The translations under genes were made by a program, and so were the position numbers. A stretch of DNA of 64,000 bases, from the NCBI RefSeq assembly GCF_000319385.1, contig NC_019566.1, positions 945,266-1,009,265 on the forward strand. The letters are read 5' to 3'. This document shows, piece after piece, positions 9,748-49,416 of the stretch; positions within the stretch are counted from its first letter, which is position 1; every line of letters begins with the position of its first letter. The notes beneath the pieces are model-generated. The model was given only the letters and a program-made list of their open reading frames with translations. It was not told where the DNA came from and did no database searches. This stretch comes from Candidatus Endolissoclinum faulkneri L2 (GTDB taxonomy: Bacteria > Pseudomonadota > Alphaproteobacteria > Thalassobaculales > Thalassobaculaceae).

Positions 9748-11058
9748 CTAATGCCGAATCTGACCACTTCCACGTACTAAGTATTTAAAACTAGTTAAAT
9801 GTTCGGCACTAATTGGGCCGCGAGCATGTATACGCCCAGTAGAAATTCCAATCTCAGCGCCAAATCCGAACTCTCCGCCATCAGCGAACTGAGTTGAAGC
9901 ATTGTGTAAAACGATAGCACTATCTACTTCAAGCAAAAACTTTTCCGCAGCTATTTTATTCTCAGTAACAATGCTATCTGTATGATGAGATCCGTGTGAG
10001 TTAATATGAGCAATAGCACCAGAAACGCCATCGACTAATGCAACTGACATAATAGCGTCAAGATACTCAGTTTCCCAATCAATCTCAGTAGCACTTTCCA
10101 TATTATTACCTACAATCGCCTGTGCATTTTTATCACCACGTAACACACAACCAGCCATGCTAAGAGCTTCAGCTACTGGAGGTAATAACTTGGACGCTCC
10201 ATCTCGGTCAATCAACAATACCTCAGCTGCGTTACATACCGAAGTACGACGCATTTTAGCGTTCACAGTTATAACTACGGCTTTTTCTAGATCAGCTTCG
10301 GCGTCAAGATATACATGACAAAGTCCACTTAAATGAGCTAACACAGGTACACGGCTTTCATTATGTACACGCTCAATTAGCGATTTTCCACCGCGAGGCA
10401 CTATTACATCTACATATTGCGGCATAGTGATCAACTTACTTACAGCAATCCGGTCGTTAGTTGGAACTAATTGGATTGCATCTTTAGGTAATCCAGCTGA
10501 TATCAAGCCCTGATGTATCGCTGCGGTAATGGCTTTAGCAGAATGATAGCTTTCCGATCCACAACGTAAAATCACTGAATTGCCCGCCTTCAAACATAAA
10601 CCACCAGCATCAGCGGTTACGTTTGGTCGGCTTTCATATATAACACCAATCACGCCTATTGGCACACGAAGACACTCGAAATAAAGTCCGTTCGGCCGAG
10701 TCCATTTTTTTATAGTTAGACCAACCGGGTCAGATAGCTCCGCTATACTGTTTAGCCCGTTAGACATATCACTTATACGACTATCAGTTAGCAATAGCCT
10801 ATCAATCATTGATTCTTTTAGTCCATTTTCTTTAGCTATAGAAATATCTCTGAAATTCGCGTTAAGAATCGTCGGCATTTCCTTCAACAGAGCAGTAGAA
10901 GCGTTACGCAAGGCTTGGTCCTTTTGCTCGGAAGAGGCATGAGCCAAGAACGCAGCAGCAATACGAGCGCGCTTACCTATATCCAACATAACTGCTTCTA
11001 TCTCGTTTTCGGAAAAGTCTACTAACTCATTAACAAGGAAGTCTTTTGCAAAATCCAT
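9748..11058 (-). CDS. proA: Gamma-glutamyl phosphate reductase
   Basis: Reduces gamma-glutamyl phosphate with NADPH to glutamate semialdehyde, the second step of proline synthesis. The 436-residue aldehyde-dehydrogenase-fold protein shows VIYESRPNVTADAGG near 140, LIVP-type block VDVIVPRGGKSLI near 220, and the active-site cysteine in RRTSVCNAAE near 280. The C-terminal HARGP and SFKYLVRGSGQIR are typical. The start at ATG 11058 (MDFAKD) is preferred over a TTG nine bases earlier. It follows proB with a gap of about a dozen bases or fewer, so the two are co-transcribed and presumably work as the ProBA complex that protects the labile acyl phosphate. Confidence 0.96.
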   Translation of the reverse strand: MDFAKDFLVNELVDFSENEIEAVMLDIGKRARIAAAFLAHASSEQKDQALRNASTALLKEMPTILNANFRDISIAKENGLKESMIDRLLLTDSRISDMSNGLNSIAELSDPVGLTIKKWTRPNGLYFECLRVPIGVIGVIYESRPNVTADAGGLCLKAGNSVILRCGSESYHSAKAITAAIHQGLISAGLPKDAIQLVPTNDRIAVSKLITMPQYVDVIVPRGGKSLIERVHNESRVPVLAHLSGLCHVYLDAEADLEKAVVITVNAKMRRTSVCNAAEVLLIDRDGASKLLPPVAEALSMAGCVLRGDKNAQAIVGNNMESATEIDWETEYLDAIMSVALVDGVSGAIAHINSHGSHHTDSIVTENKIAAEKFLLEVDSAIVLHNASTQFADGGEFGFGAEIGISTGRIHARGPISAEHLTSFKYLVRGSGQIRH

Positions 11059-11069
11059 TATATTCAAAC

Positions 11070-38348: not shown

Positions 38349-38694
38349 TCAATCAAAGTTAACGCAAAAAGATAACTATACCGTCTTTAGGCTTAAAATA
38401 TTTAATTAGTTAATACTAATTTTTGATTAAGGAAGTGCAGTAAATAATTCACACAAAAAAATAACACAAGCAACTTACTCATTGATTTAACAATTACTTT
38501 TAGTAAAGCTAGGAATTTTTCCTGCGCCTGTAATAAAATTATTTTAACTATAGCAATTTGATTTCTAACCTAATTTGTCTATTCTCTAAATTAACTTTAT
38601 AACAAACTATCTAATTATTTAATCAATGACTTAATTGATATAAAATTATCCTAGTTTTTTAAGATAAAAAAAATAATATATTAGCTTATATCAA

Positions 38695-38746
38695 AATTAC
38701 TTTAACAATAATAAGTATAATTATACTTATTATTGTTAAAGTAATT
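38695..38746. repeat. 52-base perfect palindrome without a loop
   Basis: Arms 38695-38720 and 38721-38746 are exact reverse complements with no spacer, the longest perfect palindrome I found in the window. It is in a divergent gap, 211 bases before the efflux gene frame and more than 600 bases from znuC, so it does not end any present gene. Confidence 0.92.
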
Positions 38747-38956
38747 GCATCAACAAATATGAAATATTCATCATTACATCAAATAACATCGAGAAAAACT
38801 ACTTATTATATTAAATATATGCAAGTAATAATCTATTAATCTAGCTCATAAGCGCAAAATTATTCTTAGATTATAATATCTGGTCAAATATTCAACATAA
38901 AAACAGCTCCTTCTCAGAAAACTGAGAAAATTTATAATCCCCTCACAAATCCTTTA

Positions 38957-39904
38957 ATGCGTGTTCGCATCAATAAAACATCTGTTAGTTCTTTTACTCC
39001 TTCAATGATACTATCTGGTCATACTGCAGCTGCTCGAATCATTACTATCAAGGCTGAAACTGCTGGTCGAGTCGTAGCTACTCCAATATCAAAAGGCTCT
39101 AAAGTCTCAAAAGGCACAGAAATAGCGTTTATCGATGAATCTAATCGTAATGCTCTAATGGACAAAGCGAACTCTCGTATTTACCATCGTCAAATAGAAT
39201 ATAACTTGATTTCTAAATTAGTTGCCAAGGGATTTAAAGCGAAAACAGAACTAGTAGCTATTAAAGCTGAGCTTGATGCAGCAAAATCCGAAGGTCGAAC
39301 AATTGAAATTGATCTTGAACGTACACGCGTCCGTGCTCCAATTCGCGGCGTGCTTAATGACCTTATGATTGCAGTAGGAGAGTATGTGACTGTAGGAGAT
39401 GCTATCGCAAGGATAATAGATCTCAATCCTTTACTTGTAGTAGCTCAGATATCCGAACGTCAAGCACCAATGCTTAAAATCGGCATGTTAGCCCATGCTC
39501 ACCTATCTACTGGAACAGAAGTTATTGGTCTAGTAACCTATATCTCAAACGTTGCAGATGAAAAAACTAGAACTTTCCGTATTGAAATCCATGTTGATAA
39601 TCTTACCAATAAATTTGCCCATGGCTTAACAGCGGATATACATATTGATTTACCATCAAAAAATGGTTATCGGATAAGTCCATCGATATTCCGACGAGAA
39701 AAATTAGGACAACTGGGTGTGATGATCGTCGACAATAATAATCAAGCTCACTTCATTCCAATCACAATTATTGGAAATGATGATAAGGGAACCTGGGTCA
39801 CAGGTCTACCCAACAATACAAGAGTTATCGTCGCCGGACAAGATATGGTCAAAGAAGGCGAGACCGTAGAACCAGTAGAAACTGATAATGAAACGATTTT
39901 ATGA
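38957..39904 (+). CDS. RND efflux membrane-fusion protein, apparently missing its N-terminal anchor
   Basis: Periplasmic adaptor (HlyD/AcrA family) linking an RND pump to an outer-membrane channel. The 315 residues from the only usable ATG cover the lipoyl halves (ETAGRVVATPISKGSKVSKG near 36 and RTRVRAPIRGVL near 115), the hairpin between them, the beta-barrel and the membrane-proximal part. There is no signal peptide or lipid anchor. Upstream the frame is open for about 29 codons to a TAG at 38867-38869 with proline/threonine-rich linker-like content but no ATG, GTG or TTG. So the 5' end is probably destroyed and the product could not be exported. Its stop overlaps the pump gene by ATGA. 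Best seen as part of a dead operon. Confidence 0.75.
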   Translation: MRVRINKTSVSSFTPSMILSGHTAAARIITIKAETAGRVVATPISKGSKVSKGTEIAFIDESNRNALMDKANSRIYHRQIEYNLISKLVAKGFKAKTELVAIKAELDAAKSEGRTIEIDLERTRVRAPIRGVLNDLMIAVGEYVTVGDAIARIIDLNPLLVVAQISERQAPMLKIGMLAHAHLSTGTEVIGLVTYISNVADEKTRTFRIEIHVDNLTNKFAHGLTADIHIDLPSKNGYRISPSIFRREKLGQLGVMIVDNNNQAHFIPITIIGNDDKGTWVTGLPNNTRVIVAGQDMVKEGETVEPVETDNETIL

Positions 39905-42900
39905 ACGCCTTAATATCTTACGCTTTATCACATAATAGAAGCACATTATCTGTGCTTTTGTTAATCTTAATTGCCGGCACTGCTTCTTATATAGAAATTC
40001 CGAAAGAATCTGATCCTGACATCAATATACCAATAATTTATGTATCAATAAAACTCGAAGGTATATTACCAGAAGATTCAGAGCGTCTTTTGCTACGTCC
40101 GCTTGAACAAGAACTTCGTTCGATCGATAGCATAGATGAGATGCAATCAGTTGCTTATGAAGGCGGTGCTAATATTACTTTGAAATTTAATGCAGGTTTT
40201 GATTCTGCTCAGGCTATAGATGATGTCAGAGAGAAAATTGATATTGCTAAGTTAGCTTTGCCTAGAAATGCAGATGAACCGAGAGTGCATGAGCTCAACT
40301 TCTCACTCTTTCCAGTTTTAATTGTTACTTTGTCTGGTAATATCGATGAGCATGTACTCCTGCAAACATCACGCAAATTGCAAAAGCTGGTGGAAGGAAT
40401 TCCTTCAGTTCTTGCAGTAAATCTCGTCGGGTGTCGTGAAGAAGTAATTGAGGTTCTGATCAATCCGTCACAATTAGAGAGCTACAATTTGCGACCAAGT
40501 GATGTGTTGGAGATCTTTCAACGTTCAAACAACTTGATTAGTACCGGAGAGCGCTAGATACTAGTAACGGACATTTTCCAGTTAAGGTGCCAGGGATATA
40601 CGAGAATATAATAGATATTCTTAATCAACCAATTAAAGTTAAAGAAGACGCAATTGTAAGAATTCGTGATATCGGTACAGTTCATCATAGCTTTAAGGAT
40701 CGCCAAAACTATGCGCGTTTCAACGGACAACCGACCATTTCTCTCGAGATTTCTAAGCGCTCAGGAAAAAATATCATTGATACTATAGAAAATATTCGTT
40801 CTGTAGTGAATAATGCAAAACAAGATTTCCCCTTAGGTATTACAATAAATTTTAGTCAAGATAAGTCTAACAAAATTCAAGATATGCTAAATGACCTAGA
40901 AAATAATGTTATTAGCGCCATATTGCTCGTAATAATCGTCATTATAGGAGCCATGGGCATAGGTATAGCCTGGCTAATTGGCATGACGATCCCTGCTTCA
41001 TTATTGCTTGCAATCTTGGTGCTGTCTTCACTGGGTATTAGCATCAACGTCGTGGTCTTGTTCAGCCTAATTCTAGCAGTTGGTATGATGGTTGACGGTA
41101 CCATTGTAGTTGTTGAATTTGCCGATCGTAAGATGATATCGGGTATTAGTAGACCAGAAGCCTATCTTCTGGCTAGCCAGCGCATGGCCTGGCCGATAAT
41201 AACTTCTACTGCAACAACCATAGCTGCCTTCTTCCCATTGGTATTCTGGCCTGGTTTGGTCGGAGAATTCATAAAATTTTTGCCAATCACGCTGTTGACA
41301 ACATTGTTAGCTTCACTGCTAATGGCACTGATCTTTATCCCAGCTTTAGGTGCTCAAATTGGCCAGGCCATTACAATAAATCATTCTTATAGTCTAGAGA
41401 TTATTGCTGCTGAAACTGGTGATACAGGTAAGATCCAAGGTTTAACTGGCTTTTATTTAAAATTACTCAAAACCGCGTTGCGAATGCCTGGTATAGTTTT
41501 ATTAATATCAATCGCAACGTTGCTGATAATTTCATACTACTATGTTAATCATGGTAAGGGAATAGAATTCTTTCCTAATGTTGAGCCAGACACTGCTCAA
41601 ATATATATCCATGCCAGAGGCAATCTTTCGATAGAAGAGAAACTTGGTCTTGTCCTGCCAGTTGAGCAAATAATCATGGATATAGAAGGAGTTAAGTCAA
41701 TTTATACTTATGTAGGAGCAAACAAGAAAAGTAGAAGAGAAGAGCTGGCTAACGACATAATTAGTAGCATCCAGGTAGAATTGATTGATTGGGAACAAAG
41801 ACAGCCAGCTAAACAAATTTTAGCTAAGATTGCTCAGCAGACTAAAAGTCTGCCTGGCATTCTCGTTGAGACGCGCATAAAGCGTAATGTCCTGACAACC
41901 GGTAGTCCAATACAAATGCAGCTTTATTCCAAAGATCGCGAGGCATTGGAGGAAGTAGCCAACAATATGTTAGCAAAGCTTCAGACAATACCCGGCTTAC
42001 GGGATGTGAAAGATACTCGTGACGTTCCAGGTATCGAATGGGAAATTACTGTTAATCGAGAAAAAGCTGCGCTATATGCAGCTGATATGATGGTAACTGG
42101 TCAGTACGTACAACTTATTACTAAAGGGCTAAAAATTAGTGACTATCTTCCAAAAGACAGCGAAGAAGAAATCGATGTTGTCGTACGTTATGCAGATAAT
42201 TACCGGACTTTTGAGCAGCTCGACCAAACTCGTATGAAAACGGCGAATGGCTTGGTGCCAATCTCAAACTTTGTAGAACGTAGTGCTAAAGCAAAAATCG
42301 GTAAAATTAGTCGTATCGATGCTCACGAGGCAGTTACAATTAAGGCAGATGTATCAGATGGTATACTGATAAACGACAAGGTAATGGAAATACGTGATTG
42401 GCTTGCTAACAAGCCGCTGCCACAAAGCGTAAAGATAGTCTTCAAGGGTGAAGATAAAGAAAAAAAAGAAGCACAGAATTTTTTAATAAAATCATTTGGC
42501 ATTTCCATATTTGTTATGGCGATCATTTTAGTTACTCAATTTAATAGTTTTTATTCTGCCTTAGTGATCCTATCAGCAGTAGTTATGTCAACGATTGGAG
42601 TAATTTTTGAATTAATAATTACCCAATCTCCATTCAATATTGTCATGGATGGTATCGGAATCATAGCGTTATCTGGCATAGTAGTGAATAACAATATTGT
42701 GTTAATCGATACTTTTGATAAAATTAAGTCAAATTGCTTAGATACCAGAGAAGCGATCCTACGCACTGGAGCTCAACGACTCCGTCCAGTACTGCTTACT
42801 ACTCTTACCACAATTTTAGGTTTCCTACCGATGGCAATGTGCATTAATATAGATTTTATTTCACGCCACATAAATATTGGAGCACCATCCACCCAGATAT

Positions 42901-43037
42901 GGGTATCCTTAGCCAATGCTATTATCTATGGACTAGCTTTTTCCACACTTCTTACTCTACTACTTACGCCATGTGCTTTTCTCTTCAGAGAAAGCATGAT
43001 CAAAACATTTCACAAAATACAACGTTTGCTTATCTAA
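39901..43037 (+). pseudogene. RND efflux pump permease (AcrB family), broken by a 2-base insertion
   Basis: A proton-driven inner-membrane pump of about 1,044 residues if the frame is restored. The first frame (39901-40557) encodes 218 residues from the first membrane span through the porter domain and ends at TAG 40555-40557. The second (from about 40551) continues exactly where homologues continue: ALDTSNGHFPVKVPG. Removing one GA from GGAGAG at 40546-40551 joins them, so the lesion is a dinucleotide duplication. The rest is intact: VGMMVDGTIVVVEFADRKM in span 4 and GIVVNNNIVLIDT in span 10. This is the HAE-type subgroup with Asp-Gly in place of Asp-Asp. It overlaps the adaptor gene by ATGA. 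Damage looks recent. A sequencing error or expression of two parts is possible but less likely. Confidence 0.88.
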
Positions 43038-47478: not shown

Positions 47479-49416
47479 TTATTCAACAAAGCGATTGGCA
47501 GAAAAATCTGGAGCCAACGCTTCAGTACTTAGTTTATGAATAGCTTTATCAAGAGCAAGAACTTCCTGGGCCTTGCTACCTATACGACGTATTACTACTT
47601 GTCTACTTTTGGCTTCGCGAGTCCCGATAATAAGCAAGGCGGGTACTTTTGCCTCAGAATGTTCGCGAACTTTGTAATTAATCTTTTCATTGCGCAAATC
47701 TAAAACTACACGGCACCCGGCTGCTTTGCAGGTAGCAGCCACCTCACGTGCATAATCCTGAACAGTATTAGTAATCGTCGCCACTACCACTTGAACTGGC
47801 GATAACCACATCGGAAACCGACCGGCAAATTGCTCAATTAGTATACCAATCCAGCGCTCAATAGAGCCCAGGATAGCTCTGTGCAATATAACAGGCCGCT
47901 TGCGATCACCGCTTTCAGCTACATAGGTAGCGTCCAAGCGTTCCGGCAGTACAAAATCAACTTGCAAAGTACCACACTGCCAATCACGCCCAATAGCATC
48001 ACGTAAAATAAATTCAACCTTTGGTCCATAAAACGCACCTTCACCAGGATTCATAATAGTTTCCAAGTCGGCAGCGATACATGCATCGCGCAAGGCCTTT
48101 TCAGCTCGATTCCACACCTCTTCTGTACCCGCTCGAATAGCTGGCCGATCAGAAAAGTTGATACGAATATCATGAAAGCTAAAATCAGCATAAATTGATT
48201 TTAGCAAATCACAAAACTTTATGCTCTCCTCGGTAATTTGAGCTTCTGTACAAAAGATATGAGCATCATCCTGAGTAAAAGAACGTACTCTCATAACTCC
48301 ATGCAAGGCTCCCGATGGTTCGTTACGATAACACGAGCCAAATTCAGCTAAACGAAGAGGTAAATCTCGATAAGACTTTAGACTATGCTTGTAAACTTGT
48401 ACATGACCGGGACAATTCATCGGTTTCAGGGCCAATATTCTATCATTTTTAGCATTAGCAGTGAACATATTCTCGTTGAACTTATCCCAATGACCAGAAG
48501 CTTTCCATAACGCTCGGTCAATTAACTGCGGCGTTTTAATTTCCTGATAGCCAGCCATATCCAAACGACGGCGTATGTACATCTCAATCTCACGATACAA
48601 CACCCAGCCCTTAGGATGCCAAAATACAGAACCGATTGCATCTTCTTGGATGTGAAATAAATCAAGCTCCCGACCTATTCGGCGGTGATCGCGTTTTTCA
48701 GCATCCTCTAGGGTCTGGATATGGCACCGCAAAGCCTTCTCATCCGCAAAAACTATACCAGAAATGCGCTGAAGTTGCTCGCATTTACTATCTCCACGCC
48801 AATAAGCACCTGCTACATTCATAAGCTTAAAAGCATGGCCAACCACTTTTGTCGATGAGCCATGTGGTCCACGGCACAGATCAAGAAAATTGCCCTGTCG
48901 GTAAAAAATAATCGTTTCTTCATCAGAGATTTTTTTCGTCAGTTCAACTTTAAATAATTCGTTTTTTTGCTTATAATGATCCAATGCTTGTTCCCGTGTC
49001 CATTCTTCACGTACAATATTTTCATCACTATCAACAATTTCATGCATGCGTTTTTCAATTTTATTGAGATCATCCAGTGTGAAAGACTGACAACGATAGA
49101 AATCATAATAAAAACCACTATCAATAGATTGGCCTGTTGTGGCCTGGGTTTCAGGATATAAATCCACAACTGCCTCAGCCAAAATATGCGCGCAATCGTG
49201 ACGAATATAAGCAAGCGCCTTATCCTCTTCACGACTAATTAAAATAAGCTTAGCATCCTCGACAATAATATGGTTGATATCGACTATCTTACCGTTAATC
49301 TCCGCGAGGAAAGTGTCTTTTAACAGACTAGAGGCAATATCATTAGCAACAGTAAGTGGCGTAATCGGAGAATTATAATAACGGACTGAGCCGTCAGCAA
49401 GGGTAATGGCTGGCAT
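47479..49416 (-). CDS. thrS: Threonyl-tRNA synthetase
   Basis: Class-II synthetase charging tRNA-Thr, 645 residues. Domains: TGS-like N-terminus (1-62), the second editing domain with [11 protein letters not shown] near 73, the catalytic core with the zinc cysteine in [17 protein letters not shown] near 335, motif 2 [24 protein letters not shown] near 365, motif 3 near 520, and the anticodon-binding domain (about 540-640). Head of the thrS-infC pair; no leader structure resembling the E. coli thrS operator was evident in the short upstream sequence. Confidence 0.97.

Follow-up and report, generated by a model that had tools for sequence, protein, structure and literature searches.

A gene for an RND permease is split into two consecutive open reading frames (ORFs) in "Candidatus Endolissoclinum faulkneri" L2, a tunicate (sea squirt) symbiont, and this raises a simple question: is the split a sign of a pump on its way to being lost, a fault in the assembly, or the mark of a gene that is still in use? 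We analysed a stretch of 64,000 nucleotides of the L2 genome (contig positions 945266-1009265), hereafter the window, together with the genomes of relatives. The split itself has already been reported. In the parts of Kwan & Schmidt 2013 (PMC3851785) available to us, one multi-efflux transporter of L5, P856_600, is matched to two L2 proteins, A1OE_1073/A1OE_1074, "by a frameshift." From this description, we infer that the two tags are the L2 ORFs at 39901-40557 and 40587-43037. A literature search for the locus tag of the split gene returned PMC3851785 alone. The transporter gene is not among the pseudogenes of Table 2 as we have it from that paper, and the same parts describe an L2 genome with very few recognisable pseudogenes, each carrying many frameshifts and stops. 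They make no mention of the break site, the age of the break or a lesion in the adaptor. The permease frameshift has thus been known since 2013, and we read it as ordinary gene decay; the bound on its age and the damage to the adaptor are modest additions to a published break.

The reading frame of the permease is disrupted in L2 relative to its intact orthologs. The two extra bases at GGAGAG, which lie in AGTACCGGAGAGCGCTAG (window bases 40540-40557, read directly from the sequence), are absent in all five aligned relatives (L5, G002, G003, G004, and G005), where the permease is a single ORF of 1037 aa (L5, 1008561-1011674), 1071, 1069, 1068, and 1068 aa, respectively. The frame break is thus not conserved among the nearest relatives. 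The ORF at 40587-43037 lies in a different frame from the one at 39901-40557, and its frame is open from 40542. The first part has 82% identity to L5 residues 1-216 and the second 81% identity to L5 residues 229-1036. In searches against the Pfam profile ACR_tran (1021 positions, cut-off of 28 bits), the first part matched positions 2-217 with 106.3 bits and the second positions 239-1019 with 414.5 bits. Together, they span the profile almost end to end and so match the family along its length, each half having been searched and aligned on its own. Such consecutive matches, together with the single ORFs of the relatives, indicate that the split did not arise by chance. The sequence-only reading of this locus had proposed that two duplicated bases break an RND gene that is otherwise continuous, and the alignment with the five relatives and the ORFs agree with it. 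We consider it likely that the L2 gene is a pseudogene of recent origin and that the two-gene RND efflux operon to which it belongs, an adaptor followed by the permease, is decaying (Table 1).

Table 1. Features of the efflux operon of L2, with positions in the window
Feature	Position	Strand	Basis and remarks
Expected place of the adaptor start and anchor, which in L5 take up the first 22 codons	38813..38878	+	none of the three frames free of stops; L5 similarity slight or absent
Remnant of the adaptor N-terminal region, 71% similar to L5, in frame, without start codon	38873..38956	+	blastn and alignment; frames
ORF of the RND adaptor, a membrane fusion protein; 315 aa vs 363 aa in L5	38957..39904	+	ORF; TIGR01730
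RND permease gene, first part, 218 aa	39901..40557	+	ORF; ends at TAG met after the break
Sole stretch with both frames open, 16 bases	40542..40557	+	sequence; no triple-base run, no start codon
Two extra bases within GGAGAG	40546..40551	+	DNA alignment vs L5, G002, G003, G004, G005; frame break in the RND permease gene
RND permease gene, second part, 816 aa, predicted GTG start	40587..43037	+	ORF

How could such a break arise, and what would it leave of the pump? The gain of two bases lengthens a short GA tract and is probably the product of replication slippage. The mutSLH genes are missing in both L2 and L5, according to section 7 of PMC3851785 as available to us, and slips could therefore be left unrepaired in either strain. 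The change of frame would come inside the first of the large periplasmic (porter) loops, so that the first fragment would retain a single membrane helix, the first, and a portion of this loop. The second fragment, which by the RND fold would start inside the periplasmic loop, would have no export signal and would probably not be inserted properly. The pump of L2 is thus expected to be inactive. A second RND permease, whose frame of 1037 aa is open, is encoded in the L2 genome, and L2 and L5 each have a TolC-family outer-membrane factor, which suggests that export capacity is probably reduced and not abolished.

The adaptor gene just upstream offers an additional view of the operon. Its ORF matches TIGR01730 with 153.9 bits (cut-off of 94.9), and its stop overlaps the ATG of the permease, which suggests coupled translation. 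In all seven relatives with an adaptor ORF (L5, G002, G004, G005, G007, G009, and G018), a hydrophobic anchor directly precedes a conserved SGQ. The blastn similarity between the L2 and L5 adaptors starts at 38873, just before this motif. Upstream of it, the 66 bases before 38879 score no better against L5 than 260 of 1,000 shuffles, and 100 bases aligned with the left end free reach a score matched by 55 of 1,000; a faint remnant of the anchor may thus persist upstream of 38879. The first in-frame ATG, GTG or TTG of the L2 adaptor is at 38957, hence the predicted protein lacks the anchor. These frames and alignments show that the adaptor has lost both its start and its membrane anchor in L2, separately from the break in the permease. 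The spacer between the upstream matching stretch and the adaptor (window 38614-38872 against G001:C1:1006600-1007532) measures 260 bases in L2 and 934 in L5, a shortening of about 0.67 kb of the kind that a deletion would leave. For this spacer, the loss was presumably on the side of L2; for the anchor, the same direction follows from the state of the relatives. The sequence-only reading had all else in the gene intact; this holds for the pump gene, whereas its partner, the adaptor gene, is damaged. With an adaptor damaged beside a broken permease, the whole operon looks to be decaying, and it seems that an export operon, and not one gene, is on its way out in one of two sister strains. A criterion of 20% difference in length could not have revealed the adaptor damage (315 vs 363 aa). 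Separately, the adaptor of G003 (G003:C98, 7952-8880) is in two pieces in different frames near a contig end; either this adaptor is broken too, or the assembly is at fault there.

These data also bear on the possibility that the L2 permease gene is really intact and that the break is an assembly or consensus error. In favour of this, the break is a single short indel, both halves are otherwise undamaged, and changes on the L2 branch are not significantly in excess, all of which would fit such an error. Yet, the site is not a homopolymer, and the alteration of the neighbouring adaptor over more than 60 bases is not explicable as a base-call error. Illumina HiSeq data are not prone to homopolymer-type indels. 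L2 was sequenced with this technology, as stated in the parts of PMC4008419 we could consult. Furthermore, only one pair of L2-L5 homologs differs by more than 20% in length in the available text of PMC3851785, and errors of this sort are thus uncommon in the assembly. We therefore regard an error as rather unlikely.

A different objection is that L2 still makes use of the broken gene, through frameshifting or slippage during transcription, or by translating the two pieces separately. The halves are indeed stop-free and evolve at a rate that cannot be distinguished from that of L5. However, the two frames overlap solely at 40542-40557, a stretch with neither a run of three identical bases nor a slippery heptamer, in line with what had been noted from the sequence on programmed frameshifting. 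The second frame has no ATG, GTG or TTG before 40587, which is 30 bases past the stop. Rescue by recoding was rejected for these reasons: no slippery site and no early restart. The break also falls inside the periplasmic domain, the adaptor has no anchor, and the five nearest relatives are unsplit at the site. We hold continued use to be very unlikely. In its fullest form, it would have the split pump still working in L2, as two pieces or through an unrecognised recoding, with an anchorless adaptor and with halves conserved by selection instead of youth; we find this barely credible.

If the permease is a young pseudogene, as we think, how young is it? We computed dN/dS for 35 pairs of L2-L5 ORFs of the window, after dropping 7 of 42 that were judged to be overlapping shadow ORFs. 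The values range from 0.052 to 0.409. Among the 35, the first part of the pump ranks 24th (0.192), the second 25th (0.203), and the adaptor 30th (0.262). We then polarised the amino-acid changes between L2 and L5. With seven outgroups, the changes were 12:14 (L2:L5) in the first part of the permease and 67:52 in the second, with 48 unpolarised. In the adaptor, they were 26:16, with 16 unpolarised, using six outgroups since the frame of G003 is in pieces. Three control genes of the window gave 76:80, where G009 was left out for the gene at 47479-49416 (match in two pieces) and G005 for the one at 9748-11067 (distant match only). None of the comparisons with these controls was significant, be it for the pump (79:66; Fisher p 0.36), the adaptor (Fisher p 0.16), or the pump parts and adaptor pooled (105:82; Fisher p 0.19). 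At sites invariant among outgroups, the counts were 3:6 in the first part, 36:23 in the second (p 0.12), and 4:1 in the adaptor. The second part and the adaptor thus lean towards L2, which is the direction of decay, but not significantly.

No further stop was found in either permease half of L2. Under four mutation models, this absence puts an upper bound of 9-11% of the L2 branch on the time since the break, and the excess changes of the pump correspond to about 4% of the branch (upper bound of about 10%). These bounds are rough, since they assign one half of the dS between L2 and L5 to the L2 branch and assume neutral change at the dS rate. The same calculation gives a useless bound for the adaptor (0.51-0.61 of the branch). 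Hence, any loss of constraint on the pump would be confined to roughly the last tenth of the L2 branch. That the break is recent, as the sequence-only reading had it, agrees with both the lack of further stops and the absence of a significant surplus of L2 changes, and an old decaying pseudogene was rejected on the same evidence. An assembly error, or a gene whose product continues to be made, would equally leave no other damage, and constraint was therefore lost late or, under these alternatives, not lost. On our preferred reading, the break would be a roughly datable late step of decay in a mid-stage symbiont genome, caught at its first lesion.

The distribution of the pump among relatives provides the background for this loss. 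The L2 genome is one contig of 1,481,191 bases and that of L5, its nearest relative, has 1,518,636 bases; four further members of the genus have genomes of 4.7-5.6 Mb. A sequencing primer that PMC3851785 puts at L5 coordinate 118,477 begins at exactly that base of the genome used here as L5 (G001). Among the 35 other genomes of the family that were searched, 27 have an open frame of at least 1039 aa with at least 49% identity. The remaining eight comprise G027, with a full-length match at 44%; G022, G026, and G031, where matches are partial or in pieces, with a stop in G026; and G014, G023, G029, and G035, with distant matches only. We rejected the idea that the pump was never present in the lineage, because it is whole in L5 and in 26 further family genomes of the 35. 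The ortholog in G026 (G026:C3:87832-90250) is a two-piece match with a TGA inside one of the pieces, possibly an independent break or else an assembly fault.

What kind of pump would be lost? It shares with RND permeases of the AcrB, MdtB, and MexK kind (Pfam ACR_tran) the coverage of the profile and the preceding RND adaptor, and the best solved sequence relatives of its second part are MdtB (9lyq) and MexK (9xwg and 20yy). Scanned one at a time with RND_permease_2, an NCBIfam profile for a subfamily of multidrug RND permeases, the first part scored 95.7 bits and the second 379.2, below the whole-protein cut-off of 1250. The proton relay of AcrB (D407, D408, K940, and R971) is not found complete in the pump clade, in columns taken from the alignment with MdtB: the D407 and R971 positions are kept, whereas D408 and K940 are replaced in all 36 sequences. 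The position aligned with D408 has G in 35 sequences and N in 1, and that aligned with K940 has N in 35 sequences and S in the remaining one. All 36 retain the R971/T978 motif. We take the AcrB relay numbers to fall on the corresponding motifs of this pump. The numbering itself follows PMC8277102, from the part of that article at hand. The clade reads VDG in place of the VDD of AcrB-like pumps, with N at the position of their relay lysine (window 41091-41102 and 42681-42701, or second-part residues 169-172 and 699-705); the other RND permease of the L2 genome has VDD. By this alignment, the relay residues appear to be replaced as a pair in an otherwise conserved pump, as a trait of the whole clade and not of the break.

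Finally, the dnaA gene agrees with the identity of the two genomes. The L2 dnaA pseudogene that Table 2 of PMC3851785, in the version available to us, places at 722626-724001 coincides with a broken match to DnaA at 723023-723438 of the L2 genome (G000), and the corresponding match in L5 is open.
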